A DNA stretch of 64,000 bases from contig JAQMWT010000546.1 in the NCBI GenBank assembly GCA_029834535.1, positions 186,001 through 250,000 of the forward strand, written 5' to 3'. The DNA comes from Chrysophaeum taylorii (lineage: Eukaryota; Sar; Pelagophyceae; Pelagomonadales; Pelagomonadaceae). The notes below the pieces were generated by a model. It was not told the DNA's origin. It saw only the letters and a program-made list of their open reading frames with translations, and made no database searches. Within the stretch, counting starts at the first letter, position 1, and each line of letters starts with the position of its first letter. The position numbers and the translations under genes were made by a program. Below, in pieces: positions 1 to 62,155 of this stretch.

Positions 1-537
1 CCTGTGTCGGGGTTAATTTTTGTCCCCAAAAGCAATGCAAGGAAGCATCTTGGTGCTCTCGGACGAAGCGAGCAGACGCTGCTGCGCCTGGTGAACTGGT
101 AACGGTTCGTCGCCGCACTGGAGTAGAGGCCGAGGGTGGCGACGGGGCGTCTTTATGTAGCAAATCTTGATGGCCGCAGTGTGGATAGACAATGGCAGAG
201 CGTTTACTCGAGGAGTACGCGCAACTTGGAGACAAAAACCGTGTCTCGTGCGGCGTGGCCTCGGCGCTCGGCATCGCGCGGAATGGCGTGGCCGGACGGG
301 CTCGGATGTAGGCGCCGTTGGTGATGTGATGGCAAGAAGTCTCCGAAAAGGCAATGATCGTACGGACCAGGCCGGCATCGGTGACACCGCACAGGTCAGC
401 GCACCCGTAAGCAACCGCAGACCGCGCGCCAACGTTGTCCGCCACACACGTCAACAAGACGAACGTTCAACGACTCTCTTGTCGTGGCGAGCTTGTGGTG
501 ACGAGTTCTCATCAGGGCTAACCAGTCTCGAGTTGTG
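1..537. other. 5' flank of giant gene 1, no gene recognised
   Basis: Open frames here are short, on both strands, and resemble nothing I recognise. A stretch around 395-440 looks loosely like sequence at about 15060-15110, upstream of the decayed third copy, which suggests that the tandem duplication included some 5' flank. Presumably this holds the promoter and 5' UTR of gene 1; I see no convincing core promoter element. Confidence 0.4.
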
Positions 538-41511: not shown

Positions 41512-41739
41512 GACAAACAAACAAACAAACAAACAAACAAACAAACAAACAAACAAACAAACAAACAAACAAACAAACAAACAAACAAACAAACAAACAA
41601 ACAAACAAACAAACAAACAAACAAACAAACAAACAAACAAACAAACAAACAAACAAACAAACAAACAAACAAACAAACAAACAAACAAACAAACAAACAA
41701 ACAAACAAACAGACAAACAAACAGACAAACAGACAAACA
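41512..41739. repeat. (CAAA)n microsatellite, about 230 bp
   Basis: Over fifty near-perfect tetranucleotide units run here, with a few CAGA variants at the right end. It is followed by CATCTGTCGATTAGTAGT, a flank that also follows the short equivalent tract at 62.8 kb. Confidence 0.97.
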
Positions 41740-42154
41740 TCTGTCGATTAGTAGTTAGGATCCACACAAAACTTACGGTAGGGCACATCTGAGGGATGAT
41801 GTCCCGGACTCGCAATGACCTGAACAGCTTTTATAGCTTGCGAATCACTAGAGTGATGAATATTGTGAAAATTTGTAGCGCGTCTCTGGGCATCTCGAAA
41901 AGCTACAGTGCCTCTGGCATGCACTTTTCTGTCAAAAGAAGCATGTTTTTCATGTAACTGTCTTGGAGTTATGAGAGGAATGTGTTTCATTTTTGTAGTA
42001 GATGGTTCATCTGCGGATGAGATGTTAGATAGGAATACGTGGGCTACTGAATCGAGATGAAACAATGGAAGTTCGTGGTTGGAAGAGATGTTGTCACAAC
42101 ATTGGATTGCTTTATTAGAAATGTATAACATTGTGATAGAACTCTGGTTTAATA

Positions 42155-43444
42155 TTAAGGATGTGTCAGTTGGAAATCTTGGCACAACCAAAGAAAACCG
42201 GTAACAGGATTGAGAGAAGCAGTCTTATCGATTCCTGTTTCATGTGTTTGCAAGGTGTAGGTTTCCCCAAATGCTTTTATGTGTGCCTGGTATTTAGAAG
42301 AAGAGTTAGAAACTGTAATGTCTCCACCTGTATGTCTCCCGCCAGTGATGTAAATAATAGGGGAAGTAGAGGATTTGTTTAAAAATAACCTGTGAGATGG
42401 TTGGTTAGATTCGATGGTTGTAATACGAAAAGACACAGGTAATGTAGAAGAATTTGGGAACAAGCGTCCCATAATGTTATAGAGGATAACAAAGGCCTTG
42501 AGTTCGATAGGTGAAGTCATACACGCAAGGGGCTTTCTGGAATTCGTTAAGAATCCTAGGCGAAAGTTAGAAATGCCCTCCATTTCGTCTTGACTTGGGT
42601 GTTGGATTGTTTTATATGAATGCAAACGGAGGAACAGCATGGTTAGTGTCTCTAGCTCGGTAACCGTTAGGTGAACGGATCCTGTACGACTGAAGCTGCT
42701 ATAAGTTTTGGGCATGGGAACAAATGGTACATCCGAGAAGACCTGTGTCCAGGGTTCGTCGACAATTAACTTGCGACTTATGGAATTAACATGATCCGCA
42801 ACGTCCAGGAAGGAAGTAACTCGCTTATTGGGCCAAGAGAGCAAATCTAGTGAGCCGGTATTATATTTGCGAGCAACAAGGATCCATCTTTCTCTAGCTT
42901 GATAATCTCCACACAAGTAGCATGGAAACCGGTCGCATGTGTCCACCGTGTAATGCATTGTGGAGAAGATCAGGTTAGCAACTCGTATATGATCTTCATA
43001 CGATGCAGAGTGTGGTGGTGTCATTTCCATAAAAAGAACGAGGGGCTTTAAGAGCGCAAGTACACTTAGCGCATTTGGAAATAAAGAGTCGTCCATATCT
43101 CGCTCGAAAGTTGACATAGATCTCCCATTGACTATGTTACGATTGGTACATGGGGAAGTCAATTCCACAATGTCAGAGTAGTATCTTGCACGCTCAGCGT
43201 CCGATGCTCGATGCAGATAGTTTAGGAATTTGGGTAGTGACGGGAAAACTTCTATGGAATTACCAAGCCGTCTTCGTAGCATATGTGTGAGATTTTCATC
43301 GCTTTCAACAAGAACTTTAACGTTAATGTTGATTCGCAAGTCATTGGAAGCACAAGCCAAGAATGCAGGAGTGGACATCCCGGAGCAAAGTAAAGTTACA
43401 GTAGGTACTCGTGAACTAGAAGTAGTTGTTACAGTATGGAGCAA
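42155..43444 (-). CDS. C5 DNA methyltransferase-like domain of copia element A (fossil)
   Basis: A 429-residue frame parallels the better copy in element B (51261-53552). It keeps the same cytosine-5 methyltransferase hallmarks: TLLCSGMSTPAF in the SAM-binding motif I position, VESDE (motif II), SPCTN with the catalytic Cys (motif IV), FMEMTPP (motif VI Glu) and YQARERW (motif VIII). Most differences between the copies fall outside these motifs. See the element B entry for spacing. Confidence 0.75.
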   Translation of the reverse strand: MLHTVTTTSSSRVPTVTLLCSGMSTPAFLACASNDLRININVKVLVESDENLTHMLRRRLGNSIEVFPSLPKFLNYLHRASDAERARYYSDIVELTSPCTNRNIVNGRSMSTFERDMDDSLFPNALSVLALLKPLVLFMEMTPPHSASYEDHIRVANLIFSTMHYTVDTCDRFPCYLCGDYQARERWILVARKYNTGSLDLLSWPNKRVTSFLDVADHVNSISRKLIVDEPWTQVFSDVPFVPMPKTYSSFSRTGSVHLTVTELETLTMLFLRLHSYKTIQHPSQDEMEGISNFRLGFLTNSRKPLACMTSPIELKAFVILYNIMGRLFPNSSTLPVSFRITTIESNQPSHRLFLNKSSTSPIIYITGGRHTGGDITVSNSSSKYQAHIKAFGETYTLQTHETGIDKTASLNPVTGFLWLCQDFQLTHP

Positions 43445-44354
43445 GCGTGTGTTAAACTTGCGTCATACGGGAGGTGAGAAATGTTTGCGAACATAAGGCA
43501 ACTGTGAGTGCATAGACTCCAAAATAGATTTAAACCATGGGACGTAAATTACACGTTCAAGAAGTTTGGAGTATAATTAAGCATCTCACGTTGTTCGTTA
43601 AAAGCTCTTAATCTGAGCTGTAGAGAACGTAGTTCCAGTTTTCGAGCTTTAGCTTGCTGTAATGAATAAATTGGGAGAGTAGGTAATAAATTGTTTAATC
43701 TAAACAAAGTAATCTTGGCGTTGTCGTCAATCTTGCTCTGGATAGATGATTGTCCTTTAAACTTAACCCCATGGAGGTGTATACCAAGTTTATCTTCTCC
43801 CAATTGAGTCATACTGATGATGTGCAAATCAGGATCGTTATGTTGATTTTGTCTGGGTAGGAAAAGATCAACATCAAGCTTTGCATATCCAACGTTAGGA
43901 TGTTTTGGAAGAGCAGGGATGACTGTTCGTAATATCATTGCATGAGTAATACTTTGAGTGTCGGTAGCCGTCTGGATGGCGGGTGACAAGGATTCGGGCA
44001 GTTTAACAATATGTAGTGGGTCGGCGTAACGTTTAAAGTTAACTACATGTTGAGAAGCGCACGTATCAGCATACCCAGGCGTGGTCATTAATGGTAAGTT
44101 GTATTCATTATACAGTTTGAGCATTATTGCATAACAAGCATGTGTAGAACTTTGACTAAACATATACTGAGTCATGAAACTTTGCGTTTGTTCGGAAGGT
44201 ACCACAACAAGTGTAAAACCATTGTTTAATTTCGGGAGTAACACAGGGGGATCTGCACCATCCTCGTTTTCTTCGTTTTGTTGATTATTAGGAACTTCAG
44301 AGTGCAAAGAAGTTTCCCTAGCTTGACGTCGAACGATAGCATTCTGTGCTTTAG

Positions 44355-44602
44355 CCGGTTGGCAGCCGGAACGTTCGCAGTGGGACGGGGTATGGCCGGG
44401 GGGCGAAGACGGAAGGTTATCGACGAGTTGGTTGTCAGTCACATCGCGGTCTCCTCGTCGCATGGCGACAAGCTTGATGGTCACTCTCCGCCGACCGACC
44501 TTTCGGCGCTCCTCGTCTACAGGCCCGTGATTCCGGACTGGCTCCTGTCGGTCCGGCCTGGCTCCCATGCTCGGGGGAGGTCTGAAGTGAGTTAGTTAGT
44601 TA
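44355..44602 (+). mobile_element. SINE-like retroposon copy 1, inserted in copia element A
   Basis: The insert is flanked by GCTTTAG on both sides (44348-44354 and 44603-44609). The sister copia element has the uninterrupted sequence at about 54459-54470 (GGGCTTTAGCATTTATG), a clear empty site. The 3' end has the shared stem-loop tail and TTAGTTAGTTAG. Length 248 bp, slightly 5'-truncated relative to the copy at 55039. Confidence 0.9.
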
Positions 44603-44803
44603 GCTTTAGCATTTATATGCTCCAGTAACGGTTGAGAAATATTATCGACTTCATCATCTTTGATAGATAGAAAAGCGTGAAACATCTTTTCCGTTTCAGC
44701 AGTCCCCCTATGCTCCGCATCACTGGGGGACGCTGCAGGAACATAAGTTTCAACTTGATCCTTTTCTTCTACGATGTAAGACTCTTTATCTGTCTATAAA
44801 AGG

Positions 44804-45201
44804 TGGGGAGATTTGACCCTCTCCGGGTACATGGTAGAGACTGCGTGCAGTCTTAGGCGTGTACAGACCATTCCGCTTGTCACATGCTACTACACAAGGT
44901 AGGGATTTAGGCCCTAACTCCTTAAGGACATTAGGTCCCATAGAAGCGCTCACACTGACAATGGGGAATGAAGCCTCCATTCATTAAACAGACAGCCCCA
45001 TACCTGACGGTACGCACCTGGAGGTCGGCTCCTTGTTGGAAGTGAACTGTAGATCTAATTCTTCATAATCTGAATAATGGCGGAAGGGTAAGGAAGGAAA
45101 GAGGGAAAGCCGTATTGCGGAGAGAAAACCCTCTAGTGGAGATAGGTGTGAAAGGAGTGGGGTGTTCCAGTGTCATACACATAATAGTGTAGCTCTCTGG
45201 A
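44804..45201 (-). repeat. 3' LTR of copia element B
   Basis: Aligns along its length with 57231-57631, for example sharing CCGCTTGTCACATGCTACTA and CTAACTCCTTAAGGACATTA. On the plus strand it starts TGGGGAGATTTG, so the element-sense LTR ends in CCA. Its other end abuts a purine-rich tract. Confidence 0.85.
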
Positions 45202-45211
45202 CCCCCTCAAC
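45202..45211 (-). other. Polypurine tract of copia element B
   Basis: The minus strand reads GTTGAGGGGG directly before the 3' LTR start, the expected position for priming of second-strand synthesis. Confidence 0.65.
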
Positions 45212-45338: not shown

Positions 45339-47332
45339 TTAGGAAGATGAGGTTGGGCGAGTCGTGACATTGCGTAAAGAAGCGGCATCCACAACATCAG
45401 ATGTGTGGTCCAACTCATCATCACTATTATCTTCCAGTTCCTTTAACTCTGGAGAGGAAGAATCATGACCTTCGGGTTGGTCGTTAGTAGTATTGTTTGT
45501 AGTGATAGCATCACTGAGGGCGACCAGGGGTGCCATGACAGAAGATAGGAAGGACATAGCTGCATCTGGTGTTAAAGTATGCAAGTCTGCTGCTGGGATA
45601 ACATGATCCTACGCATCAGACATAGCGGTATGTAAGTTATGAGCTGTATCGCCGATTAGAGTTTGCTGTGCCTCGTCATAGGTATTTGGAGGAAACTGTC
45701 CAATAGACGAAATGAGTGATCGCGAGATTATATGAACAAAGACAGCAAGGGTAGGCATCATAGTATCTTGGTGCATTTGGTAGCTTGATAGTATATTATC
45801 CAAGAGCGCGACGTGTTTTATATTTTCGGTTACTTGAGCGCTCAGTGTGGCATAAGCTTCTTGTAGCTGAGTTAAGTTCTTTAAAGCAGTCGATAGTTGT
45901 TAATCTCGCTCCATCAATTGTTGCTCACTGTTAGTAATACGCGAGGATAGGGATCGAATTTCTCTTTTTAACTGGCGTAAAGATGCAACGACATTGTCGT
46001 TAGGTTCGTCTGGCGTGGGTTCAGCAGATGCAGTTTCGACTGGTGTACGTGTTTCACCTTCAGACAATTTAGTATCTGAAAATGCGTCTATTATAGCAGA
46101 GGGATAGCCAACCTGGACTAGCACGCTTTTGAAACGGACTGATGCTCAGGTGAAAGGTGAAGAAAGTAATCCAACATTGGCGGTACCATCTCGCGAGAAG
46201 TGTCATTAAGCTGGTGAAAGACATCATTAACGAAACTTTCAATGAGCACATTAAGTAGCTCGTCAGGATTGGTCACGACACAGATTTTATCTTCAACAGA
46301 CTGTAGTAATGACCAAGCCGCTACAAGAATCTCAAGATTTACGTTCGAGATATAAGGCAGCTGTAGCGAGAAGGGAGCGTTGGCGTCAGGGTTTACGGTG
46401 ATTTTAGAAGCATCCAAATTATGGATAGCCATACATTTCATGAGCGCCTCTTTAAGCAGCTTGTTGATTGCAATGGACTTCCCAAAGCGGAGAATGATAG
46501 CTCTCATGTGTGCAGCTGGATCATTATAGCAAGAAACATGAAAGGACTGTCGGCTATTCCGAATTAACGCTGTCCCGTGCTGCGACAAATTACACATGAC
46601 ACAGATCAAAATAAAAAATGGACGCGGTACGTCAAAACAATGCGAAGCATGTTGATCTGACGCAAGGTGGTCCTCGATGATTTTGTTGATTTTGTCCGTT
46701 GTAAGCTCATCTTCGGTGCAAATGGCGAGTGCAAGGGGCGTACCCGGCGCATCGGTTTTGTTAAAGCATTTCGTACACGCCACGTGTACTTTGACAACGC
46801 CTTTAATGGGTGGGTATCGATGAAATCGAATACCCTCTTTTGTCGGTATGTTAGGAGCGTTACGGATGTGCTTCGCCTTTAGACACAATAGTGAGCTTAA
46901 GAATTGGATGTTGTCTACACAGTTATTTTGTTGTGCCTCCGTAAGCAGTTGTTGGATGGATTGATGCCAACATTGAGGATCCTTAGGTGACGGTAGCAAA
47001 AACTTCGGTGGCTGGGTGCCAAGCGAAAGAACGTTCCCTGACATCATCGCCATAGCATCGAATTTGCAATGCTTAAGCAGAAAGTACTCTGTATTTGCCA
47101 AATGCGATTTAGTTTGATGTTGGACTATTTGAGATTTAGGAGTCACTGGCGAGGACTGTTTTCCTTGAGCAACCGAAAGGTACGTTTGATGCTTCCGATT
47201 AGGAGAACTGGTTGGAGAAACGCCTGGATTTAGTGCATTAAACGGAGAAGATAATGATGAAATGCCACCACGTCCACGGTTCAGTACAGAGTAACGTCGG
47301 CTCGCAGCATCCTTGTTCTTGGCAGGGTTCAT
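45339..47332 (-). CDS. Extra ORF region downstream of RNase H in copia element B (zinc-finger and coiled-coil, fossil)
   Basis: The main frame (46118-47332, 404 residues) starts MNPAKNKDAASRRYS. It contains CTKC followed about 30 residues later by DHLASDQHASHC, a C2H2/BED-like arrangement, then a second CxxC (ICVMCN). Further frames down to 45339 continue with a Glu/Lys-rich heptad-like stretch (LRQLKREIRSLSSRITNSEQ) suggesting a coiled coil. The position between pol and the 3' LTR is that of env-like or accessory ORFs in some copia lineages (Sirevirus, for example). It does not resemble gag of this element, and I see no envelope signature. Function unknown. Confidence 0.55.
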
Positions 47333-47441: not shown

Positions 47442-48063
47442 TTAAGCATCTTGCTGAGCTATAGCTATGGGTTGTTGTAAGCCAAGTAACGTGCGGAATC
47501 TGGTTAAGAGCGGAGCACCAAAGGGTTTAGTGAATCCGTCAGCGATGTTCCGAGTACCGGAAACATGATGTAAGCGAATGCGTTTTAGATGTGCGTAATC
47601 GCGAATACGAAACCAGCGTGTGCTAATAGCTTTGGCCTTAGTCGCACTGTCAGGATTATTTGATAGATGGATAGCAGAAGCAGAATCCCCAAGTATAGGA
47701 CTGTTACGTATGAACGACATGTCCGATGGGAGAGGGTTGTCATGAGCATCATAATCTAATAACAAATCTTTCCCTGGAGGTTGGCGAAGATAGTATTGTG
47801 GGTTTATAGCGAATGCCATTTCAGTTAACAATTTGCGTAACCAGACCTCATCATCAACACACATATTAAGGGCGATGAGTTCACTCTCATGCGTAGAAGT
47901 AGCTGTGCTAGGCTGTAGTTTGGACTTCCAAGTGATGAGAGAACCGAACATAAAGATGGCGTAACCGGTTGTAGACTGGCGGTCTTGTTCATAAGAGGGT
48001 GCGTTATCAGCATCGACGAACGCGACCAGTGGATCAAAGTTACCTGAATTTACTTGTTCTTTA
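47442..48063 (-). CDS. RNase H region of copia element B (fossil)
   Basis: The frame has hallmarks of the Ty1/copia RNase H tail: a STHESELIALN segment, GDSASAIHLSNNP, and HVSGTRNIADGFTKP near the end. It is separated from the reverse transcriptase by a SINE at 48064-48283. Confidence 0.85.
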
Positions 48064-48283
48064 CGCAGTGGGACGGGGTATGGCCGGGGGGCGAAGACGG
48101 AAGGTTATCGACGAGTTGGTTCTCAGTCACATCGCGGTCTCCTCGTCGCATGGCGACAAGCTTGATGGTCACTCTCCGGCGACCGACCTTTCGGCGCTCC
48201 TCGTCTACAGGCCCGTGATTCCGGACTGGCTCCTGTCGGTCCGGCCTGGCTCCCATGCTCGGGAGAGGTCTGAAGTTAGTTAG
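48064..48283 (+). mobile_element. SINE-like retroposon copy 2, inserted in copia element B
   Basis: A 220-bp insert, 5'-truncated relative to the longest copy. It is flanked by TTACTTGTTCTTTA on both sides (48050-48063 and 48284-48297). It carries the common stem-loop tail and ends GAAGTTAGTTAG. It lies on the strand opposite to the host element. Confidence 0.9.
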
Positions 48284-49466
48284 TTACTTGTTCTTTAGTG
48301 TAATCCAACATGGTTGCCATATCAGTACGATTGCCGATGAGAAGTCTAAGGTGGTCCATTAGAGTGGAAGAGCGAGAGTAGTACCATAGTCGAAGATTGC
48401 GATTTTCGGGCTTGCGCAAATAGCGGAGAGTTCCTGTTAATACTTGAACATGCAGAAATAGTGGATTATGCATTCCTCGGGAACAACGACTAAGGCTTTG
48501 TGATAAATCAGGGCGACAGGCCAACTGTACAAAAGTGAGCTTGCCAAGTAAGGTTGAGAAGGTGTGTAGGATGAACTTGTCCATATCAGAAGATGGCTCT
48601 CCAGTTTTATAAGTGGTTGATGGTGACATCGGTGTAGAGGTAGGACGTAACTGCATTAGAATGGGGTACTCTTCAAACAATGCATCAATTTTAGCTTGAC
48701 AGTCAAGTGAGATGGAACCATCGGTAGTACGCGTTATGCGCATACCTAAGAGAGTATGAACTTCTTCAAAGGTTTCGACTGAATATCCCTTTTTCATGGC
48801 TTGCTGGAATTCACGACGTAGCGTTTCCGAGGTGCAAGTGATAACAACATCATCCACTGAGAGCGTGCAAAGAAAATACGTAGCGTCAGCTTGGACTTTA
48901 GCATAGATGCATGTATCTATTCGAAAGCGTGTATAGCCTAATGAGTCAAAGAAACCATTTATGGTTTGATTCCAAAGGGCAGGACTCTGTCGTAATCCAT
49001 AAAGAGATTTAAGTAGTTTTGGGAGACGTCGTCCTTTATATTTTGTATCTTCAGGATCGAGTAGGTAAATACCTTGTGGCAGTTTAACATGGACATGAGA
49101 ATCTATGGGAGCTTGAACAAAAGCGTTAAGAACGTCTACGTGGTAGACGGGAAGTCGTAGGTGAGCTGCTAGCGCCAGAACACAACGGATGCCAGTAAAC
49201 TGCGCCATAGGACTGAGTGTGTTGAAAAAGTCAGTGCCCAGAGAAGCTAAGAATCCTCGTAGGACCAATCGTGCTTTATGCTTGATGTACTGACCGGCAG
49301 CACTGGTTTTTATACGTAATACAAGGCGGGTATCAATAGGCTTTGAGTTGACCATGGGCAACGCGAGTTTAAAGCAGCCGAACTCAACAAAATCAAAAAT
49401 CTCCTTGGAAATAGCGGAGATATAAGCTTTACGATCAACGTCTGAGAGACCTTTGAGGCAGGTCAA
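48284..49466 (-). CDS. Reverse transcriptase of copia element B (fossil)
   Basis: Classic Ty1/copia RT: KARLVLRGF, VDVLNAFVQAPI, LKSLYGLRQSPALW, the catalytic segment LSVDDVVI (YVDDM-like with Ser in place of Tyr), and LLGKLTFVQLACRPDLS near the C-terminus. The preceding domain is the integrase/linker. Confidence 0.9.
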
Positions 49467-49499: not shown

Positions 49500-51270
49500 A
49501 ATTTTATATTCGTTCGGACCAACAGTGCTGGGATCTTGAGCATTGGTAAGATGGGTGATTGCGTAAGAAGCGACCTTATCGTTAGTGTGAGCGTAAGCTG
49601 GATCTTCGACAAGTGAACGACTAGTAGAGGGTCATCTCCAAAGTGGGCCTCAATGTAATGAGATTGCACGGTGATGGAGTCTTCGATGGCGGAAAGGTGA
49701 GGCTCGGAAGCACCATGAGAAGCATCATTATGATCCAAAATGGAATGAGGGGTGAGCAAAGCATAAGCATATTGAGCGGGAGGAACTCGAAAAGCTTGAG
49801 AGTGTTCAGAAATAAGATGAACGAGAGCACGAGGAAGGTGAAAGTCTGCAAGGCTGAAGTCGTCGAAGATATGAACAGGAGTGGCATCCGTCGATGGATG
49901 GCTAAGGCTCCTATGACACATAGCGGAAGACGATAGGGAAAGCGCTTGGTGAACATGATGATGAAGGGATGGTGTAAATTCCCCCTCTGGAGGTATAGCC
50001 GTCCAGGGGATGCCATGAGCAACATGAAGGGAGTGGAGGGTGGGGTCGCAGAAAGTGATATACACCAGCTTGTTTGTAAGCGGCAACAGTTGGCGATGCA
50101 ATACGAGTAAGAACAGCCTTGAGATTAGTCTTGCGACGAGGTTGAGGGTGATGAGGACCACGGGTGAGACGAAGGACATCCTGGGAATAGAGAGACCGAT
50201 AAGACGGTAAAAGGGGTAAAGTGTGGGAAGACACTTCAGATGTTGGAGGTGTGGTGACAGAAGCAGCGGGTGCAGAAGCAGCTGGAGCACATGCGGGAAC
50301 GGGAGTAGGAGCATGGGCAAGAGAAGAAGGAGTCCACCTCTCGTGTTTAATGTCGGTGGACATAGTATTCCCCCTCTGCGCCGCATCATTGGGGGTGCTG
50401 TGAACAGAGAAGGGGATGTCGGGTGAAGGTGCGGGTGGGGGATGTTGTTCATAGTCGGGAGGTGATTTGGAAATAAGATGAGGAAAGGTAAGTTTAGAAG
50501 AAACACGGACTTGGCCGTTCTCAGGATTAAGGACAACATCAGCTAAATGGTTGACATGGGGTGTTATTAACGGGTTTATAACATTAGCACCACATAAGCA
50601 GATGTAAGGACGACATCGAGGTTCATATTTATGAAATTCAGTGGGTTCCAAATGCAGGTAACACACAGAATCAAAAGGTTTGAGGTAATCTTGTTGGGGG
50701 ACATTACATTGATCCAACAAATCTTGTTGGGGGCTTAAGACTCTATTGTAAATACGTTCGAGGGAAACGTTAGGAAGGAGATTATACGATTGGACAGCAT
50801 GTATAACAGCCCACGGGTAGTGTGGTGCCGGATCTGTTAGGGGTTGAAATTTATAGGATACATTAAGTATATGCCGGAGGCGTGTAGACGCGGCAGTTGC
50901 TATATGACCAACAGCGGCTGCTACTTCAGGATTAAAAACATGTAAGTAAGGGGGGAACGCAGACATATTAATACCGTGTTCAACACGAAAGGGAGTTGTA
51001 ACATGTTGAGATAAGTTGGGTTAAAAAGAATCACAATAAATTTGTTTTAATTGTACAAAAGTGGAGCAAAAGTTGCGAACAAAATCGAGGGCATTACAAA
51101 ATTCGCTAGAGTTGGTGGTACGACAAAAGTACACTAACAAAAATTTAGAAATGAGACACTTAAAGACGATGATAAGGCGAAAGGATCCCCATTCCGAGAG
51201 GACAGATACGTAACCACCATCACATGCCCAGGCTTCACCAGGTTGAAAAACTTTTTCGAATTATGGTTGC
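49500..51270 (-). CDS. Integrase and Pro-rich linker region of copia element B (fossil)
   Basis: The region follows the pre-integrase zinc segment of the upstream frame. The DDE-core start (a PGEAW.CD-like segment) lies near 51230. Later integrase sequence continues in the frame from about 50966. It then passes into a long Pro/His/Ser-rich linker (about 49.9-50.5 kb) before the reverse transcriptase, as is usual for copia. Carried in more than one frame. Confidence 0.65.
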
Positions 51271-53552
51271 TTGGTAAGATGATGTGGATGAGGAAAGCGT
51301 TTTTTATGTAAGGTGCAATCCACACAGAACTTACGGTAGGGCACATCTGAAGGATGATGTCCCGGACTGGCAATGACCTGAACAGCTCTTGTAGCTTGGG
51401 AATCACTAGAATGATGTATATTGTAAAAATTGGTAGCACGTCGCTGAGCATCTCGAAACGCGAGGGTGCCTCTGGCATGAACTTTTCTGTCGAAGGGCGC
51501 ATGTTTCTCATGTAACTGTCTTGGAGTTATGAGAGGAATATGTTTGGTTTTTGTAGGAGATGATGTATCTGCGGATGGAGTGTTAGAGAGGAAGACGTGA
51601 GCCACTGAATCAAGATGAAATAGTGGAAGTTCGTGGTTAGAAGCGAGATTATCACAACATTGAAAGATTTTATTAGAGATGTATAACATTGTAATGGAAC
51701 TCTGGTGTAATATTAAGGATGTGTCAGTAGGAAAGATGTTTGTGAAAAAGGTTGGCCTGTAGTTTTTGGTTAGAGAGGCGTGATCAGGGTCAAAAGATGG
51801 TGATAACGTTAATTTACGCAAGTCATAGACAATCTGACACAAATGTGTATAAATTACATGATAGGTTCCAGCCGGAATAGCATTAGCGATTATGGCACAG
51901 CATAGATCCGGGGACAAAGACAGAAGAAAATTAATTTGGTACGCTGTGAAATTATTGGCGCGTGCCAATTCGCGAGTTGAGTAATGTCGAATGCGATCGA
52001 GCCGTGGATCGTAAAGGATGATGTTAGTAAACCCACGAATAGTAGGTGTTGGGGTGTATATAGAGTGAACTTTGGCGCCCATTTTCCTATCGCTGGATGT
52101 GATGAAGCCAAGGTATCTGCTTTGAGACAGATGCATGTCACTTAAAGCAAAACTTTTATCGATGAACTCGAGACGATTTTCCTGAGGGTAAAAAATGAAA
52201 GAATCGTGAAGCACAGGTGAAGTGTAGGAAACCAATGTTTGTACTAGACGACGCGTGTCTTGATTTTCATTATGATGGTGATAAGCTTGGCATAACCAAA
52301 GAAAACCGGCAACAGGAGTAAGAGAAGCAGTCTTATCGATTCCTGTATCATGTGTTTGGAAGATGTAGGTTTCGCCAAATGCATTTATGTGTGCCTGGTA
52401 TTTAGAAGAAGAGTTAGAAACTATGATGTCTCCACCTGTGTGTCTTCTACCAGTGATGTAAATGATGGAGGCAGTAGACGATTTATTTAAGAATAACCTG
52501 TGAGATGGTTGGTTAGATTCGATAGTTGTAATACGAAAGGACACAGGTAATGTGGTAGAGTTTGGGAACAAGCGTCCCATAATATTATAGAGGAGCACGA
52601 AAGCCTTGAGTTCAATAGGAGAGCTCATACAAGAGAGGGGCTTTCTTGAATTCGTTAAGAATCCTAAGCGAAAGTTAGAATTGCCCTCCATTTCATCTTG
52701 ACTTGGATGTTCGACTGTTTTGTTTGAGTGCAGACGAAGAAACAACATGGTTAAAGTTTCGAGCTTAGTAACTGCTAGGCGAACGGATCCTGTGCGACTG
52801 AAATTGCTGTAAGTTTTGGGTATGGACACAAATGGCATATCAGAGAAAACCTGCGTCCAAGTTTCGTCGATAATTAACTTGCGACTGATGGAGTTGGCGT
52901 GATCTGCAATGTCCAGGAAGGAAGTGACTCGTTTATTAGGCCAGGAGAGCAAATCTAGAGGACCGGTATTATATTTACGAGCGACAAGGATCCATCTTTC
53001 TCTGGCTTGATAATCTCCACACAAGTAACGTGGAAATCGATCACATATATCCACTGTATAGTTCATCGTAGAGAATATAAGATTAGCAACTCGTATATGA
53101 TCTTCATACGATGCAGAGTGTGGTGGCGTCATCTCCATAAAAAGAATGAGGGGCTTTAAAAGCTCAAGGACACTTAGAGCACTTGGAAACAAGGAGTTGT
53201 CCATATCGCGCTCGAAAGTTAAAATGGATCTCCCGTTGATTATGTTGCGATTGGTGCATGGAGATGTCAATTCCACTATATCAGTATAATATCTTGCACG
53301 TTCAGTGTCCGATGCTCGATATAGATATGTAAGGAACTTGGATAGTGACGGGAAAACTTCGATGGAATTACCAAAGCGTCTTTGTAGCATATGCGTAAGA
53401 TTTTCGTCGCTCTCAACAAGAACTTTAACGTTGATGTTGATTTGCAAGTCATTGGAAGCACAAGCCAAGAAGGCAGGAGTGGACATCCCGGAGCAAAGTA
53501 GAGTTACAGTAGGTGCTCGTGAACTTGGAGATGTTGTTACCGTATGGAGCAA
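51261..53552 (-). CDS. C5 DNA methyltransferase-like domain joined to pre-integrase region, copia element B (763 residues)
   Basis: The N-terminal ~200 residues show the catalytic half of a cytosine-5 DNA methyltransferase. TLLCSGMSTPAF at residues 17-28 is in the SAM-binding motif I position and VESDE (46-50) is motif II. SPCTN has candidate catalytic Cys99 in the motif IV Pro-Cys. FMEMTPP supplies motif VI Glu140, and YQARERW (181-187) is motif VIII. Cys-Glu and Glu-Gln distances (41 and 42 residues) match M.HhaI (38 and 42). The DLFAG Phe is replaced by Cys, so cofactor binding may differ. A motif IX/X-like RTGSVRLAVTKLETLT follows near residue 260. The C-terminal part (about 640-763) ends with H...H and CVDC, the pre-integrase zinc region. 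The protease lies just upstream. Confidence 0.8.
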   Translation of the reverse strand: MLHTVTTSPSSRAPTVTLLCSGMSTPAFLACASNDLQININVKVLVESDENLTHMLQRRFGNSIEVFPSLSKFLTYLYRASDTERARYYTDIVELTSPCTNRNIINGRSILTFERDMDNSLFPSALSVLELLKPLILFMEMTPPHSASYEDHIRVANLIFSTMNYTVDICDRFPRYLCGDYQARERWILVARKYNTGPLDLLSWPNKRVTSFLDIADHANSISRKLIIDETWTQVFSDMPFVSIPKTYSNFSRTGSVRLAVTKLETLTMLFLRLHSNKTVEHPSQDEMEGNSNFRLGFLTNSRKPLSCMSSPIELKAFVLLYNIMGRLFPNSTTLPVSFRITTIESNQPSHRLFLNKSSTASIIYITGRRHTGGDIIVSNSSSKYQAHINAFGETYIFQTHDTGIDKTASLTPVAGFLWLCQAYHHHNENQDTRRLVQTLVSYTSPVLHDSFIFYPQENRLEFIDKSFALSDMHLSQSRYLGFITSSDRKMGAKVHSIYTPTPTIRGFTNIILYDPRLDRIRHYSTRELARANNFTAYQINFLLSLSPDLCCAIIANAIPAGTYHVIYTHLCQIVYDLRKLTLSPSFDPDHASLTKNYRPTFFTNIFPTDTSLILHQSSITMLYISNKIFQCCDNLASNHELPLFHLDSVAHVFLSNTPSADTSSPTKTKHIPLITPRQLHEKHAPFDRKVHARGTLAFRDAQRRATNFYNIHHSSDSQATRAVQVIASPGHHPSDVPYRKFCVDCTLHKKRFPHPHHLTKQP

Positions 53553-53570: not shown

Positions 53571-54540
53571 TCATACAGGAGGTGAGAAAGGCTTGCGTAC
53601 GTAAGGCAACTGCGAATGTATTGACGCCAGGATGGTTTTGAGCCATGGGACGTAAATTACACGTTCCAGAAGGTTGGAGTATAGCTTAAGCATTTCGCGT
53701 TGTTCGTTAAAAGCACTTAGTCTGAACTGTAAGGAGCGAAGTTCCATTTTCCGAGCTTTAGCTTGTTGTAGTGAATGAATTGGGAGAGTAGGTAATAAGT
53801 TGTTTAATCTAAACAAAGTAAGCTTGACATTGTCGTCAATTTTACTCTGGATAGATGATTGTCCTTTAAACTCAACCCCGTAAAGGTGTATACCAAGTTT
53901 GTCTTCTCCCCATTGAGTCACGCTGATGATGTGCAGATCAGGATCATTATGCTCGTTTTTGCTTGGGTAGGAAAAGCGCAACATCAAGCTTTACGTATCC
54001 CACGTTAGGATGCTTTGGGAGAGCGGGGATGACGGTTCTTATTATCATGGCATGAGTGATACTTTGAGTATCAGTAGCCGTCTGGATAGCGGGTGACACG
54101 GACTCGAGTAGTTTAACGATATGTATTGGATCGGCGTAACGTTTAAAGTTAATTACATGTTGAGAGGCACATGTATCAGCATACCCCGGCGTAGTCATTA
54201 AAGGTAAATTGTACTCATTGTACAATTTAAGCATTGTTGCGTAACAGGCATGTGTAGAGCTTTGACCAAACACATACTGTGTCATGAAACTTTGCGTTTG
54301 TTCGGAAGGTACCACGACAAGTGTAAATCCATTGTTTAATTTCGGTAGCAACACAGAGGGATCTGTACCATCCTCATTTTCTTCGTTAGGTTGGTTATTT
54401 GGGAGCTCGGAGTGCGAAGAAGTTTCCCGAGCTTGACGACGAACGATGGCATTCTGGGCTTTAGCATTTATGTGCTGCAGTAGCGGTAGAGGAATGTTAT
54501 CGATTTCATCATCTTTGATAGATAGAAAAGCATGAAACAT
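53571..54540 (-). CDS. Protease region of copia element B (fossil)
   Basis: Contains GYADTCASQHVINF, an aspartic-protease active-site segment (usual copia form DSGASxH) with Cys in place of Gly. The same segment occurs in element A. It lies between the gag region and the methyltransferase-like domain. Confidence 0.7.
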
Positions 54541-54648: not shown

Positions 54649-56749
54649 TTATAAGAGGTTCGAGATGGTTTTGGACATTGTATCAACTCGTGATAAGTAT
54701 AGATGAACTTGAGTAGCTTCGTCAAGATCTGGAGACTGTGTCGAAGCTTGGGAAGCGGTTGTCCAAAGGGTACTCAGTAAGCTCTTCATTTCTTCCTGTA
54801 CCATTTTAGAGTCGGTAGAAGGATTGGGATTCGCTTCCTGTAATTTACCAAACAGGTGGCGAAGACGGTCAACTTGATAAGTAGCCCTGTCCATTAATGA
54901 CATGTTGGAGCGCGAGTTGCAGTTAGAAGACTGTGCGTAGACAGGACGGTCGAAACTGGTGCCTTTGACATTATAATTTGAAGGTGGACGATAGTAGGAT
55001 GTATCACGAGGTGAGATTGTCGATGCTTTATCTTTTGCCCTCCCGGCGTAGGTTGGCACCTATTCGCCTCCCGGGCGGGCCGGTTGGCAGCCGGAACGTT
55101 CGCAGTGGGACGGGGTATGGTCGGGGGGCGAAGACGGAAGGTTATCGACGAGTTGGTTGTCAGTCACATCGCGGTCTCCTCGTCGCATGGCGACAAGCTT
55201 GATGGTCACTCTCCGCCGACCGACCTTTCGGCACTCCTCGTCTACAGGCCCGTGATTCCGGACTGGCTCCTGTCGGTTCGGCCTGGCTCCCATGCTCGGG
55301 AGAGGTCTGAAGTTAGTTAGTTAGTTATCTTTTGCACTACGAAGTTTACGAGCATTAAAACCAGACTGTCCAGCGACAGTAGCTAACAATGAGTAAGCAT
55401 TGTTTAGAGAATCATGAGATTGATGAATAGTATCCATCAATAATACCTTAGGTGGCTTGGTAGCGGTAGTACCAGGGATATATGGAATCCATGATGCTGG
55501 TTTATCCAAGCGTCGGTTAGATGAAAACTTTGTCTCATTATATATCTTTAACAAGAACTCCAATAACGGACGAACATCATTGGGATCAACTAGCTTTAAA
55601 ACTTCAGGATCGTGAGTCGAGTTGTTCCCCGAGCGTGTCTCGTAAAGTTTGCACCATTCTAGTAAAGACTGAGAATAGCGTTCGTGATCAGAGGGATTAG
55701 CATATGGACGACGGATCTCCTCGTGAGCTTTAAGTGCGATTATGGAATCATTAAATTGAATTGATGCTTCGTCATGGTTTAATTGATTTGCCTGAGTTTG
55801 GAATGCAAGGAGTTGTTCGACAAATACATGAGCACACCAATCAACATTTAAGGACATTCGATTAAACTGAGATTTAAGTTCAGTGACATCTGTACAAGAT
55901 ACTGTTTCGTAGTAGTGGTAAGCTAAACGCGTTGCTGCACGTAATTTATTAGGATGTGCAGTAAAGGAATAAATTTTCTTCAACTGTGGCCACATGGCGA
56001 GGGCAGGGCGTTCATGAGATTCTAGGTTGAAGAACGTGTACAGGAAACCGGCGTAAGTTTCGCAATGTTTAATCCAATCGGCATTAGAGAGACCTGAGAA
56101 GGATATGTTGGTTAGAGATGAATCATACACAATTGATTTTGGAAATCAACGCCTTTTCATCCCTCGCCTCTACCCCAACTGTGTGATTTTGCTCTGTGAT
56201 CCTGGACCGGCTCCTGCCGGCCCAGCCTGGCTCCCATGCCCGGGAGAGGTCCGAAGTTAGTTAGTTTAGTTAGATTTTGGAAATCGGGTATCTAATAAAG
56301 TGAGGACACGCTTAACATCCTCATTTTATTCGGGTCGAACAAGATTATATGACTCTTGATAGAAAAGTCGCTCGAGATCATTACGTGCATCAACTGATAG
56401 TTGATGGGTAGAGTTGACGTGCCAAGTCTTGAGATGAGCAGGCAAGGCATCTTCATTAGGTAACTGTAATTCATTAATCTTTTCAGCTTTCCATTGAGCG
56501 AAAATGATATCAACTTCGTGTTCGAGAAGTTGGTCATATTCTGGGGCATTTCGTGTATATGAGTCATAGGAGTCGTATATAGAACAACGCATCCACATGT
56601 GGGCTTGTCATATGCCTGCGAAGCATCTCAATTTGCAAACTCACCTTGGTCGAATTGTCTTGGAAGCGCAATCCACCGTTGAGTTTATCAACGAGGATTT
56701 GTTCCTGCTTATAAATATCCGTGGTGGATATTGGTCTTGGTTTCGACAT
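54649..56749 (-). CDS. Gag region of copia element B (fossil)
   Basis: Several frames in element sense. The longest (55325-56130) is rich in helical, non-enzymatic sequence (for example SNADWIKHCETYAGFLYTFF and RATRLAYHYYETV), as expected for a capsid-like gag. A shorter one at 54649-55030 follows. No CCHC zinc knuckle is seen. Two retroposons (55039 and 56148) lie within the region. Confidence 0.55.
55039..55324 (+). mobile_element. SINE-like retroposon copy 3 (fullest copy), inserted in copia element B
   Basis: A 286-bp insert with flanks TTATCTTTTGC on both sides (55028-55038 and 55325-55335). It is the longest of the three copies, so the best guide to the family. It ends in the two-hairpin tail plus TTAGTTAGTTAG. 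A ~52-bp stretch near its 5' end resembles the LINE fragment at 18181-18232. No clear tRNA A/B boxes are visible. Confidence 0.9.
56148..56272 (+). mobile_element. 5'-truncated LINE 3' end, inserted in copia element B
   Basis: A 125-bp insert flanked by GATTTTGGAAATC on both sides (56135-56147 and 56273-56285), a 13-bp target duplication. It carries the LINE 3' UTR form (TGTGTGATTTTGCTCTGTGATCC...), as at 18440-18470, rather than the SINE body. It ends with the common stem-loops and TTAG repeats. Confidence 0.9.
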
Positions 56750-57217
56750 AGTCGTGACCTATTGAAAATAGGTTATAGGAGTGATAAAACAAATTGACAT
56801 GTTCGAATGAAGGGTTTCTAACATGCGGAGGAATATGTACAGTTAGCTATTTTAAGCGTGAGCTTATATACAAGACCAAACAAATCACCGTGCCATTTGA
56901 GCATGATGCTTTGAGACTGAAGAATGGATTAGTTCTCGAGCATTCAGTCTTTTGTTGGGAATGAGAGGAAAAACCCGTACAAGTTTCCGCGGCTTGTGTA
57001 GGAAAAATTTTAATTTTATTGGCTATGCGAGTGCATAAGACCAGTGGCCGACCCAACTCGGTCACAAACCAAATTAACTGGTGGTCAAATACCGTCACAC
57101 AACAAATATGTACAGTAGACCACCGCCAAACACATTGTCGCATTGTACTCGTAATCAGGCGTAAACTGATCACTCCATTATACGCACAACACAGTTGGGC
57201 TGACACACCTACGCATC

Positions 57218-57230
57218 TGGGCCCATAACC
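57218..57230 (-). other. Primer-binding site of copia element B, matching the initiator tRNA-Met anticodon arm
   Basis: The plus strand TGGGCCCATAACC, immediately next to the 5' LTR, is identical to the anticodon stem-loop of eukaryotic initiator tRNA-Met (UGGGCCCAUAACC in plants). The element RNA is therefore complementary to it. Priming by an internal half-tRNA of initiator Met is known for Drosophila copia and yeast Ty5. Confidence 0.75.
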
Positions 57231-57631
57231 TGGAGAGATTTGACCCTCTCCGAGTACATGGTAGAGACTGTGCGCAGTCTTAGGCGTGTACAGACCATTC
57301 CGCTTGTCACATGCTACTACACAAGGTAGGGATTTAGGCCCTAACTCCTTAAGGACATTAAGTCCCGTAGAAGCGTTTACACTGACAACGAGGAACGGAG
57401 CCTCTGTCAATTAAACAGAAAACCCCGTACACGACGGTACTCACCTGGAGGCCTACCCCATGTTGGTAGAAAGCTTGAGGCGATTCTCATTGTCATGAAA
57501 TATGTAATTGCGGAAGGGTAAGGAAGGGAAGAGGGACAGCCGAATTACGGAGAGAAAACCCTCAAGTAGGAAAAGGTGTGAGAGGAGTAAAAAGTTCCCG
57601 TGTCGTACACGTTATAGTGTAGCGCTCTGGA
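57231..57631 (-). repeat. 5' LTR of copia element B
   Basis: Partner of 44804-45201, with the same end structure (plus strand begins TGGAGAGATTTG and ends CTCTGGA). The primer-binding site directly adjoins it, which identifies it as the 5' LTR. A gypsy remnant starts immediately outside. Confidence 0.85.
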
Positions 57632-57639
57632 GTAAGATG

Positions 57640-60600
57640 GATATCGACTGATGATCTCCAAGATCGCACCAAATGGAAACCTCCAGAGGTGCCGTTGATT
57701 CGGCCTGCAACAGATGAGCCGGGACGTCTCACGCTTCTTCTGCTGTCCCCCCCCGACAACCAAATTTGGACGTTCCGCCAGATCCTGAGCGAGATCGGGA
57801 ACCGAAGATTAAGAACGAGCTGAGTGTTCGTGTCAAAGGCGAGAGGATCAACGAAAGCCACCCGGAAGTGAGACTAAAATACGAGAAAAAGTTTGATGTG
57901 CCATGGAAAGATGCTCCGCGCGATGCTGAGGGGGCACCGCTGCCGCACACTCCTGAGCATGTCAAGGATAACGAAGCAATGAAAGTGAAAATTCCTATGA
58001 AAGAAGAAGTTGGCAAGGTTGTTCAGGAACTTGGAATTCCTGACAATCCGCACTTAGATGACGATGCAAAACTGATGCCCGTCACTGTGTGCAATACTCT
58101 TGGGCTTTTTTTCGACCCGATTATGAGACCTGTGGACTCGCCTCCTGTGTCTCTACGATTCAAAGACGCGAATCCGCGACCGATTAAGATGACGCCCTAC
58201 CGACTGACACCTGCGAAGGTCGATTGTCTCCGCAAGCAGATCAGCGAGTGGTGCCGGGATGGAGTGATTCGTCTGGCCGACTCACCTTGGGGCTTTCCTG
58301 TATTGATGCTTCCCAAGAAAGGAGCTGAGATTGGAACGTCAAACGCGTTCCGTGCCGCAGTTGACTTACGTCAGCTCAACGATCAATTGGTCAACGACAG
58401 TCGGCCGAACATTCGACAAGGTGATGCTTTAGCTTTTCTCGCCATGCGACGATGGCGGACATGCATTGATATTAGATGGGGATACCACAACCTTCGTCTA
58501 GATCCGGCAGCGCAAGACGCTGTCATGATGGTTAGCCCACTTGGCGCTCATAGTGTCTTGAGATTACCTCTAGGTGTGAAGACGGCCGGAGCTCTTTTCT
58601 GCAAGCAAATGGCGAGCGACCTTTCGAAATGGATGTATCGAGACTTGGTTGCGTTTGTTGACGATATTATGATGGGATCTGACGATCTTCATCGACATTT
58701 ACAGTTTTGATCGAAATTATGTGTCATTTGGCACAGAGAGGGTACAGCGGTCGAACTGCGAAGTTCCACCTTCTCAAAGATGATATAGAATTTCTGGGGC
58801 ACATTTCGACCCCAGAAGGCTTGAAGCCGAATCCGAAGACGCTGGAAGCACTGCAGAAGATGCCGATTCCAGGTACTTTACCAAATACGTCCCCGAAGAC
58901 TCAGATACGCTCTTTCATCGGCATGAGTAATTACTGCCGGCGATATGTGAAGGGCTACTTGAAGATAGTGGAACCGTTGAGACGATTATGCCTCGAAGGC
59001 GTAAAGTTAGAATGGACGCCCGAGTTGTCAAAAGGCTTGGGATACGACTATTGAAGCTTTGGTTGGTTCCCGAGGAGTCTACCACCCCGATTATGATCTG
59101 CCTTTTAAGATCCGTTCCGACGCTTCCAAGGATGGACTTGGAGCATATCTCTTCCAGATTGTCGAAGTTAAAGACGATGCCGGAAGAGTAACTCGAGAAG
59201 AACGAGTAATTGAATACTGGAGTTGCTGGCAGATATCCTTTCTCTAGAGTACTTTCGAGCCTACATCGAAGGGCACCGGACTGTATTGGAGACCGATCAC
59301 CGAAACTTGACGTTTTTACGCAAGGCGACGCACTCGTCTGGGCAGCTTGCTCGTTGGGCGATGCGCCTCGCTAATTTTGACCCTGAATTTGGTTACAAGC
59401 CGGGAAAGTCACCGGGAGTGAGTATCCCTGACTGTCTCTCCCGCAATCCGATAGATCATGTCATCGAAACTGACGAGTTTGGAGAACCTTCGAACCACGC
59501 TTATTTGGTGTTCCAAGAGCTTCCCCGACCCGTTGATGACCGAGGAATTCCCGCCTCCGGCTGCCACTTCACAATGTCGTTCGTTACGACCGACCTGCCG
59601 GAGGACGAGGAAGAAGATCCTGAAAAGGATCCGACGAGAGTGGCTACGTCTCACGCTACGAGACAACGTCAGAAGAACCGTGCGCGCGATGAGCCACAGG
59701 TCTTCAGGGACGCAGCCGCTTATAAGGATTATATCGATAAGATACCCGGCAAAATGACGCTCGCCTAGATCGCCCGTGAGGAAGAATCTGATGCTACTTG
59801 CGAGGATATTCGTCACCGAATGGCCCAAGTTCAGACGCCGCGACGTTCCCGAGCGAACGAACGATATGATGTTGTTAAAGACATTCTTTACCGCATTTCT
59901 GCTGATTTGCACCCGATGATTGTGGCCCCTGCTACGTTGCGCAAGCGCATTATTCGACTATACCATGACACTCCGGTTAACGGTGGTCATATGGGACGTC
60001 ACAGTACTGTCCATGCTATCCAAGAACGATTTTGGTGGCCCCACATGTCAAACGAAGTCGGAGTCTTCATTACCGAGTGTTTAGTTTGCCAGAAGGCTCG
60101 TACACCTGAGCCGAAACGAGCTGGACTCTTGCAACAGCCTGTGTACGATGGTGATGGTGCTGTTCTATGCATGGATTTAGTTGGACCCTTGTCCAGCGCT
60201 GGTCCTGAGACGTATCTTTTAGTATTTTTTGATGCGTTCTCGCACTTCTTGATATTAGATGTTTTGAACGACAAGGCTCTTGAATCTATTCTTGAGTCAT
60301 TTGTCATTAACATCCTCCTCAAGGGCTACTTGCCCCGGATGATTCGTTCCGAGAACGGTAAAGAATTCGTGAACAATTTGATGCGCGAGTATTGCCATCT
60401 CTTCAACACACGATATCAAACCACGATTCCTTATCATGCCCAGTCGAACCCGGCTGAGCGTGTAAACCGATTTATCAAGGCCTTCCTCCGTGCTTGCCTT
60501 CAGGGCCGGAACATCACAGATTGGCCCGACTTTGCCCATTATATTGCGTTTTGCTACAACCGCAAGTTTATTCCAGGCACGCAGATTTCTCCCTTTATGC

Positions 60601-61500
60601 TGCGCCTGAACCGTCAGCCAATGCTGCCAACTAACTACACGCTTATGGACTTTGATACGCGACTGTTACCTAAGACTCGCTCTGATGCAGTCGCCGAAAC
60701 TCGTGAACGATTGAAGTATTATACGAAGATCGTCCGCGAGGTTCGTGATAAAGCTTTAAAGAAGCAACGATTGGCCCACAACGCCGATCATGTCGATGTT
60801 GAATACAAGGAAAGGTCGCATGTTTTGCTTTACATTCCTTTCCTTCAGAACAAGCTTCGACCGGAATGGCGAGGACCGTTTATTATCAAGGAACGCCTTT
60901 CCCCGGTCACCTATAGGATTGAGTCTCTCGACTCTCCGCCCGAAGAACGACGTGTTCATGTTAGTCAGATCACGCCTGTGATGGTACCTCCGATCGTTGA
61001 TCAAACCATCCGCAAACCCGAAGAAACTTTCCGTGATAATTATCAGCACGGTAAGTTTGTTGTTTTCCGGATTCCTGACCGGAAGCTCTCTGATTGGCGC
61101 AAGAAGATTTATGTTGCCGAAGTTTACGAGCCGTACGATTACCAGGATGATCGTGTTGCTCTACATTTCTATTCTGATTTGGGTCCGAACGATGATGTCG
61201 CTTATTTTAAGCCGACCTCTCATCTTTCGCACCGCAAACTCAAGCCCGAGTTAAAGGATGTTGACGGTCGTAGTTTCACCGACAAGTCCAAGATCTCATC
61301 CAGCACAACACCTTGTGTCACGGATTTCGCTCCGCACGAGACTGATGTGTTGATTCCCAAGTTTACTTACGCAGTGGTCGGGTTCCCGAACCGATCGTCA
61401 CCCGCGTTTACAAGAAGATCCGTTCGCGAGATGCTCGTAAGGCGAGGCCGCGCTCCTCGCGCTAGCCGCTCGCTGGGGTAGCTCGGATTCTTACCAGGGG
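57640..61500 (+). mobile_element. Ty3/gypsy retrotransposon, 5'-truncated and broken (RT, RNase H, integrase)
   Basis: Parts in Ty3/gypsy order: reverse transcriptase about 58090-59050 (LRFKDANPRPIKMTPYRL, DIRWGYHNLRLD, catalytic FVDDIMMG), RNase H about 59060-59500 (IRSDASKDGLGAYL, LETDHRNLTFL), and integrase 59820-61481. The integrase has an HHCC zinc region ending CLVCQKA, a DDE core (CMDLVGPL; IRSENGKEF) and a GPY/F-type module (PEWRGPFIIKERLSPVTYRI). Gag, protease and LTRs are not seen; the 5' side is cut off by the LTR of copia element B. About three or four breaks in the surviving part. Confidence 0.85.
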
Positions 61501-62155
61501 AGTCCTGTAGCGGCAACTCCCGCCTCCTAAGGCTTACCCCTCTTCTAGGGCCTCCCTTATCAGGGGCACCCTACTCCGATCTGATGATGTCAGTTTTCTT
61601 TATGACATCATCTTCCTTTTCCGTGACATGCGTCACCCTGATTTCTGTGTTTCGATAATATCTTAATCACAAAGCAACAGCCGATCCTCAAGTTGTGAGG
61701 ACCAGCCACGGAAGTTGTTTGTGGTTGTGTGGCGAGAGAACGGCCTTCCTCGTCCAGTGACTCCATCAAGGGCACGGCCGCGAGCGGCGAGCCTAGATTC
61801 GAAGGCGCGCCAGGTAGGCATAATTTCCCATAACGCCACACCCCCCCCCCACGGTCCATCCATCGATCCACAATGTTAATAATTGGGAAACGTCAGTGGG
61901 TGAGTGAGGAAACTCTACCGGAACTATACTTTTTTTTTTTTAAAGAATGTATGTGCGAAACGGCCCGAAAAAAAGTGCGCTTTCAACGATACTCTCAACG
62001 AAAACCATCCTTCACCCGACATTCTTCAGCCGACATTCTTCACCCGTGCTTCACCCGTCCACGCTCTTCACCCAAACTCTGCCAAAAAGATAAAAAGATA
62101 CAAATCCTGACGCATCGGAACGCGACGCGACTTCCGAAACCGAGCACTGTGAATT
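61501..62155. other. Intergenic, no gene recognised
   Basis: Sequence after the gypsy integrase, with no LTR match found inside the window. A short run of near-direct repeats (TTCACCCGACATTCTTCAGCC and similar) lies at about 62008-62075 before the next gene. T- and C-homopolymers occur at 61929-61941 and near 61842. Confidence 0.45.

Follow-up and report, generated by a model that had tools for sequence, protein, structure and literature searches.

The 64,000-nucleotide window analysed here (Chrysophaeum taylorii, contig JAQMWT010000546.1, positions 186,001 to 250,000) contains a 12.8-kb Ty1/copia long terminal repeat (LTR) retrotransposon, whose Pol appears to carry a captured and diverged C5-cytosine DNA methyltransferase (DNMT) between protease and integrase. 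The open reading frame (ORF) in question, 51261-53552 on the minus strand, comprises the DNMT-like and integrase-finger part of the element. Judged from its motifs, its relatives, and the selection acting on it, the domain very probably descends from a C5-methyltransferase. We prefer the reading that it is a functional DNA methyltransferase with a role in the retrotransposition cycle, to which we assign a probability of about 0.6. The initial annotation of this frame regarded the element as a single case, which does not hold, as the genome contains at least three Copia families and one Gypsy family with such enzymes. In the following, family A denotes the Copia family of the window element (the window itself is locus L001), and B and D denote the second and third Copia family, respectively.

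Motifs of the window frame and its Copia relatives

Minus-strand translation of 51261-53552 yields LLCSGMST, VESDE, TSPCTN, FMEMTPP, and GDYQARERW in the order initially annotated, and the reported spacings of 41 (Cys105-Glu146) and 42 residues (Glu146-Gln188) were found again in the stop-to-stop frame. In addition to these motifs I, II, IV, VI, and VIII, a motif IX-like STRELARANNF and a motif X-like IANAIPAG are present, which had been missed. The domain extends over 51777..53528, and the span given in the initial annotation also holds the HHCC zinc finger of the integrase, recognised by eye. Motif order, catalytic Pro-Cys, Glu, and Gln-x-Arg are shared with the C5-methyltransferases M.HhaI, DNMT2, and DNMT5, from which the window domain differs by variant motifs I and VI and by an insert of ~210 residues before motif IX.

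A genome search with PF00145 resulted in 124 rows, including two host genes; apart from these, the middle of the profile is covered in 55 rows. Eighteen of them (L011-L028, chosen by PF00145 score) were inspected, and all belong to family B, members of which score 32.2, 34.2, and 46.3 bits at a cut-off of 22, with an E-value of 5.1e-12 for L011. In case of L052, a single frame of 1801 amino acids contains a protease motif LIDGGAS (by eye), a DNA_methylase match (9.8e-8), an rve match (0.0055, below cut-off), and an RVT_2 match (1.3e-17). The order protease, DNMT, integrase, and reverse transcriptase is the same as in the window element. Motif I of family B reads AIIAGGLH, motif IV LPCQH (18/18 loci), and motif VI EN. 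Family D (L058, L059, and part of L008) shares 44-46% identity with the window domain, and Pro-Cys, Glu, and Gln-x-Arg of the catalytic motifs are conserved in it; L058 retains LLCSGLSTPAFL, VESD, TPPCTNR, EMTPPH, GDYQSR, and SNALPAG. The motif IV Pro-Cys and the motif VI Glu, named in the initial annotation as residues to be conserved in other members, are kept in families A, D, and B. The third of these features, the motif VIII QxRxR, is kept in A and D as GDYQ[AS]RxR, and is replaced by ISKTR or ISKNR in B.

Genome-wide matches number at least 64 for family A, 110 for D, 71 for B, and 62 for the Gypsy family; these are lower bounds in which split matches are counted apart, and many copies are broken. 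Among 10 family-A loci out of 64 listed matches (mostly best-scoring, window included), TSPCTN occurs in 9, EMTPPH in 8, GDYQ in 9, and ANAIPAG in all 10. At six places of family D, PCTN (as TPPCTN), EMTPPH, and GDYQSR are complete (6/6) and SNALPAG is found at four, with L054 coinciding with part of L008. For six copies of family A (15 pairs), the ratio of nonsynonymous to synonymous substitutions (dN/dS) is 0.074 both in motifs I-VIII and in motifs IX-X and 0.073 in the integrase part; the insert reaches 0.104 and the linker 0.194. Purifying selection on the DNMT part is as strong as on the integrase part. Towards L033 and family D, synonymous distances are high or saturated. The marks of a retrotransposon-encoded DNMT according to de Mendoza et al. 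(2018), i.e., location inside an element ORF, many copies, and purifying selection, are all observed here.

Families D and B were compared by Smith-Waterman alignment (BLOSUM45, 300 shuffles). For the N-terminal part, z-scores of 7.8-11.0 were obtained and none of the 300 shuffles reached the score in any of the 9 tests, which combine three related D with three related B sequences and are not independent. In case of A and B, z ranges from 1.45 to 6.6 for the N-terminal part and from 0.96 to 3.5 for the C-terminal part; with other cuts, z was 4.84 for the C-terminal (1/1000 shuffles) and 2.9 for the N-terminal part (18/1000). Alignment of a joint A and D profile to B with hhalign covers 462 colinear columns with motifs II, IV, VI, VIII, IX, and X in register. 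Homology of the A/D and B domains is very likely in view of D as a bridge, of the motifs, and of their common position in the polyprotein.

A number of results weigh against a methyltransferase. The window frame gave no methyltransferase or other match in Pfam up to E 10, no match in NCBIfam up to E 1, and no methyltransferase in PDB, where p53 and leptin were the only hits (E ~0.1). Neither the window frame nor family D has a PF00145 match, no methyltransferase in PDB was matched by the A and D profile, and an AlphaFold2 model from two window sequences alone failed (predicted local distance difference test, pLDDT, 31.5). The C-terminal part of D compared to B is weak (z 2.1-3.0), and the hhalign probabilities are only 2.9% for A and D versus B (E 0.016) and 4.4% for A versus B (E 0.009). 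With 2000 shuffled decoys, no HMMER test between the families reached significance: the best B match and best decoy were 0.0013 and 0.026 for the N-terminal A and D profile, 0.054 and 0.073 for the full profile, and, with the B profile, the values were 0.06 and 0.27. When the D profile was used, the best B match (0.077) was outranked by a decoy (0.074). The only methyltransferase in PDB matched by the B profile had an E-value of 0.37. As a yardstick, the two certain host DNMTs (L009 and L010) fail to find each other in pair tests as well. The profile and structure match proposed as a check in the initial annotation thus failed for the window frame alone, and this outcome is overturned only through the relatives. 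The placement of a C5-methyltransferase-derived domain between protease and integrase is supported, with catalytic motifs conserved from family to family and strong purifying selection.

Taken at face value, the missing direct profile match and the non-significant HMMER tests would fit coincidental motifs in an unrelated, Copia-specific domain. This explanation is highly improbable, considering that family B passes PF00145 at the same place in the polyprotein, that D aligns with B far beyond shuffles, and that A and D are in register through motifs II to X. The retention of motifs IV, VI, and VIII in D, together with this register to a PF00145-passing family, is more than chance.

Organisation of the element and the UGA junction

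The assignment to Ty1/copia in the initial annotation is borne out by the RVT_2 match as well as by LTRs, primer binding site, and polypurine tract. Protease, integrase, reverse transcriptase, and RNase H follow in the Ty1/copia order, with the integrase finger, protease, and RNase H recognised by eye. The features of the region are:

57632..61540, plus strand: Ty3/gypsy copy abutting the Copia 5' LTR, matches the DNMT-bearing Gypsy family
57231..57631, minus strand: 5' LTR, 401 bp, TCCAGAGC...TCTCTCCA, identical ends in other genome copies
57217..57230, minus strand: primer binding site immediately adjoining the LTR, pairs over 14 nt with nucleotides 27-40 of tRNA-Met (anticodon CAT)
55324..56130, minus strand: gag-like ORF (by position; similar frame in L031)
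55079..55336, unstranded: 258-bp short repeat inserted in the Copia element
53950..54540, minus strand: protease-like ORF with GYADTCAS (by eye)
53571..53573, minus strand: in-frame UGA between protease and DNMT frames
51777..53528, minus strand: C5-methyltransferase-like domain (motifs I, II, IV, VI, VIII, ~210-residue insert, then IX, X)
51264..51450, minus strand: integrase HHCC zinc-finger region (by eye), frame closes at 51261
49914..50966, minus strand: frame with integrase C-terminal SH3-like match (PF25597, E 5.3e-4, below its own cut-off)
48276..49466, minus strand: reverse transcriptase (RVT_2; PF07727, E 6.6e-39)
48042..48299, unstranded: second copy of the 258-bp repeat, between reverse transcriptase and RNase H
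47442..47951, minus strand: RNase H-like ORF, ITWKSKLQ...ADGFTKP (by position and by eye)
46118..47332, minus strand: 404-amino-acid ORF downstream of RNase H, part of the Copia element (stretch recurs in other copies)
45202..45210, minus strand: polypurine tract TTGAGGGGG preceding the 3' LTR
44804..45201, minus strand: 3' LTR, ~84% identical to the 5' LTR
41760..44804, minus strand: second, incomplete element copy immediately adjoining the 3' LTR, DNMT frame 42158-43462 open for 435 residues

In Pfam, no gag match was obtained for the gag-like ORF, no protease match for the protease-like ORF, no RNase H match for the RNase H-like ORF, and no match at all for the 404-amino-acid ORF. Downstream of the HHCC finger, relatives of the element show an rve-type core below the Pfam cut-off. 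The protease active site of families A and D (window, L033, and L058) reads DTCAS or DSCAT, unlike the usual site, in which a Gly is expected after Thr/Ser. ARAGORN called a tRNA-Met in two of the four loci holding the exact primer-site pattern, and we take this primer to be the initiator tRNA. Priming with a half-tRNA is known from copia and parallels the tRNA-Met primer site of the element.

A GAGGGGG tract precedes 8 of 11 LTR copies compared in the genome, and these eight are 3' LTRs. Due to the LTR identity of 84%, the lack of an established target-site duplication, and the partial copy adjoining the 3' LTR, the two LTRs of the window may stem from more than one insertion. As a relic, the window copy is broken by the 258-bp repeats at 55079 and 48042 and with Pol split over several frames; long open frames persist in other copies. 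The 258-bp repeat is also present at 44354-44611 and in L053, with copies up to 97-98% alike. It ends in TTAG-type repeats, occurs inside both Copia and Gypsy elements, and by eye resembles a short interspersed nuclear element. Next to the partial second Copia copy, a tandem repeat with a period of ~8 bases is located at 41513-41739. Elsewhere in the window, two giant open frames (502-9750 and 20135-31765; 3082 and 3876 amino acids) with similar ends contain long PSxxPSxxPT-type repeats and are accompanied by long antisense open frames.

In all 11 distinct family-A stretches (two in the window, L002-L008, L031, and L033), which were selected without requiring the stop, the protease frame terminates at an in-frame UGA with C as the next base, directly adjoined by the DNMT frame. 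This includes L033, which is only 72-74% identical though the UGA is kept. An ATG overlapping the UGA sits in another frame (by eye). In case of family D, an in-frame stop before the DNMT was found in three of five stretches (L055, L056, and L058), while L054 and L059 differ; in family B, gag and pol frames overlap in -1 register. Due to the conserved UGA-C and the adjoining DNMT frame in family A, the junction points to a candidate programmed readthrough.

The Gypsy family and the host methyltransferases

Only the last ~50 residues of the DNMT-bearing frame are visible in the Gypsy copy of the window (57632-57790), and this fragment begins exactly at the end of the Copia LTR. The loci L053, L064, and L065 contain LFSGAGG and ASPPCVHSA after a protease-like part and score 23.5, 22.5, and 26.3 bits with PF00145 (cut-off 22). 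Motif I of this family reads MLFSGAGGST. Downstream of the DNMT, L053 holds RVT_1, RNase H, and an integrase zinc finger, and the open frames with matches of the family are as long as 3067 amino acids. A further relative of the Gypsy enzyme, L067, reaches 34.0 bits, and its match to the profile extends through motifs IX-X. Between two Gypsy subfamilies, motifs I-VIII are best kept, with 86% identity and a dN/dS of 0.063; for the close copies L064 and L065, which show few differences, it is 0.35. Gypsy and Copia enzymes do not align beyond shuffles. Since the certain host DNMTs L009 and L010 fail the same test, a common capture is neither shown nor excluded, and mobile DNA has perhaps captured a DNMT more than once here. 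Scans of viral contigs with the A, B, and Gypsy frames gave no result.

The host genome contains a DNMT2-like gene (L009; PDB 1g55, E 3.9e-39), which adjoins a light-harvesting-like protein (by eye) suggestive of a photosynthetic alga, and a DNMT5-like gene (L010, L066) with DNA_methylase and SNF2 in one frame of 2086 amino acids; introns were ignored in this search, and further host DNMTs may have been missed. It is conceivable that the retrotransposon enzyme methylates RNA in the DNMT2 manner, either the tRNA-Met primer or the genomic RNA. The match of the primer site to the anticodon half of tRNA-Met, and the resemblance of RHYSTRELA and PKTYxxFxRTGSVxL to L009, seen by eye, are in agreement with this. 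The shuffle tests, which included DNMT2- and DNMT5-like host genes only, do not separate the two as nearest class and give DNMT2 no edge over DNMT5 (N-terminal part of A: z 2.6 to L009 and 3.1 to L010; C-terminal part to L009: 0.2), and methylation of RNA is very doubtful. A DNMT2 origin was rejected as a claim, the resemblance being by eye only.

Possible role of the domain and known systems

An alternative to an active DNA methyltransferase is a C5-methyltransferase-derived domain that is no longer catalytic and binds nucleic acids or has a structural role within Pol or the pre-integration complex. Several observations speak for such a loss and at the same time count against an active enzyme. 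Motif I is LLCSG[ML]ST in families A and D; the Phe-to-Cys change initially noted is present, and the second Gly is missing as well. Due to the lack of the FxGxG pattern, we call A and D descended from C5-methyltransferases rather than certified members. Motif VI of both families is EMT instead of ENV, family B lacks QxRxR, and a target-recognition domain is not recognisable. The ratio of observed to expected CpG is 0.94-1.11 in the elements, compared to 1.13-1.46 in host stretches, and with 0.94-0.96 the window element has lost little CpG. No sign of strong CpG decay in the elements was found in this comparison, and transitions at CpG (38/1359) are in small excess only over those at other C and G (133/6651). 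CpG decay as evidence of self-methylation was rejected on these grounds, and the suggestion of the initial annotation that the element may methylate DNA, perhaps its own to escape silencing, gains no support from CpG loss. Despite these points, PCTN, EMTPPH, and GDYQ belong to the best-kept stretches between A and D at 44-46% identity, and LPCQH is invariant in the family-B loci, though these were picked by PF00145 score. A domain without catalytic function is thus rather unlikely.

In case of an active DNA methyltransferase, Gag and protease would terminate at the UGA, and readthrough would yield a minor Gag-PR-DNMT-IN-RT-RH fusion, by which the enzyme would be packaged in the particle together with reverse transcriptase and integrase. 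It may then methylate cytosines of the element's own complementary DNA (cDNA), before or at integration. The methyl marks could shield the cDNA from host nucleases; alternatively, they may be maintained by the host DNMT5 and thereby define the chromatin state of a newly inserted copy.

Retrotransposon DNMTs are already published for LINE (long interspersed nuclear element), DIRS, and Gypsy elements. In de Mendoza et al. (2018; PMC5890265), they are reported from LINE and DIRS elements of Symbiodinium and from Gypsy of Klebsormidium, and Symbiodinium Copia elements are stated to be without any DNMT domain. De novo methylation of CG by a retrotransposon DNMT, described there, provides a precedent for the activity proposed here, and the LINE enzyme tested in yeast, which gave no DNA methylation, is a point against it. 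According to the same paper, KnitGypsy-Dnmt3 of Klebsormidium nitens resembles the window element as an LTR-type element of an algal host with a C5-DNMT inside Pol under purifying selection (Ka/Ks < 0.2), and differs by its Gypsy composition, DIRS-like repeats, and a Dnmt3-related enzyme. In contrast, the window element belongs to Ty1/copia, and its enzyme, placed between protease and integrase, has diverged much further. SymbioDIRS-Dnmt3 and SymbioLINE-Dnmt of Symbiodinium are similar in their many DNMT copies per genome and several element types, with DIRS and LINE elements as carriers (PMC5890265). The diatom Copia-like CoDi elements are likewise Ty1/copia of algae, without mention of a DNMT domain in the available text of PMC9998398 and PMC3145265. 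Section 5 of PMC12344493 places retrotransposon DNMT3s in "LTR Copia and DIRS", citing PMC5890265, which says Gypsy. A C5-DNMT in Copia is also not mentioned in the accessible parts of PMC12477816 and PMC6338049, the former describing a DNA transposon with an N4C/N6A methyltransferase. No description of Copia with a DNMT placed between protease and integrase came up in the literature searched, with subscription papers, preprints, and Repbase outside reach.

It is tempting to speculate that C5-methyltransferases entered LTR elements on at least two occasions, in Copia and in Gypsy, and that the few hundred copies of these elements supply de novo methylation maintained by DNMT5, so that the methylome would be seeded by retrotransposons, a scenario that we consider quite unlikely. 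Cytosine methylation is usually regarded as a weapon against transposons; here, the putative writer enzyme is under selection inside a Copia element, and mobile DNA has apparently acquired a component of the epigenetic machinery. The presence of Copia and Gypsy DNMTs in one genome suggests that DNMT carriage is a recurrent retrotransposon strategy, and the several families of C. taylorii offer a system for asking what a DNMT does for the element.

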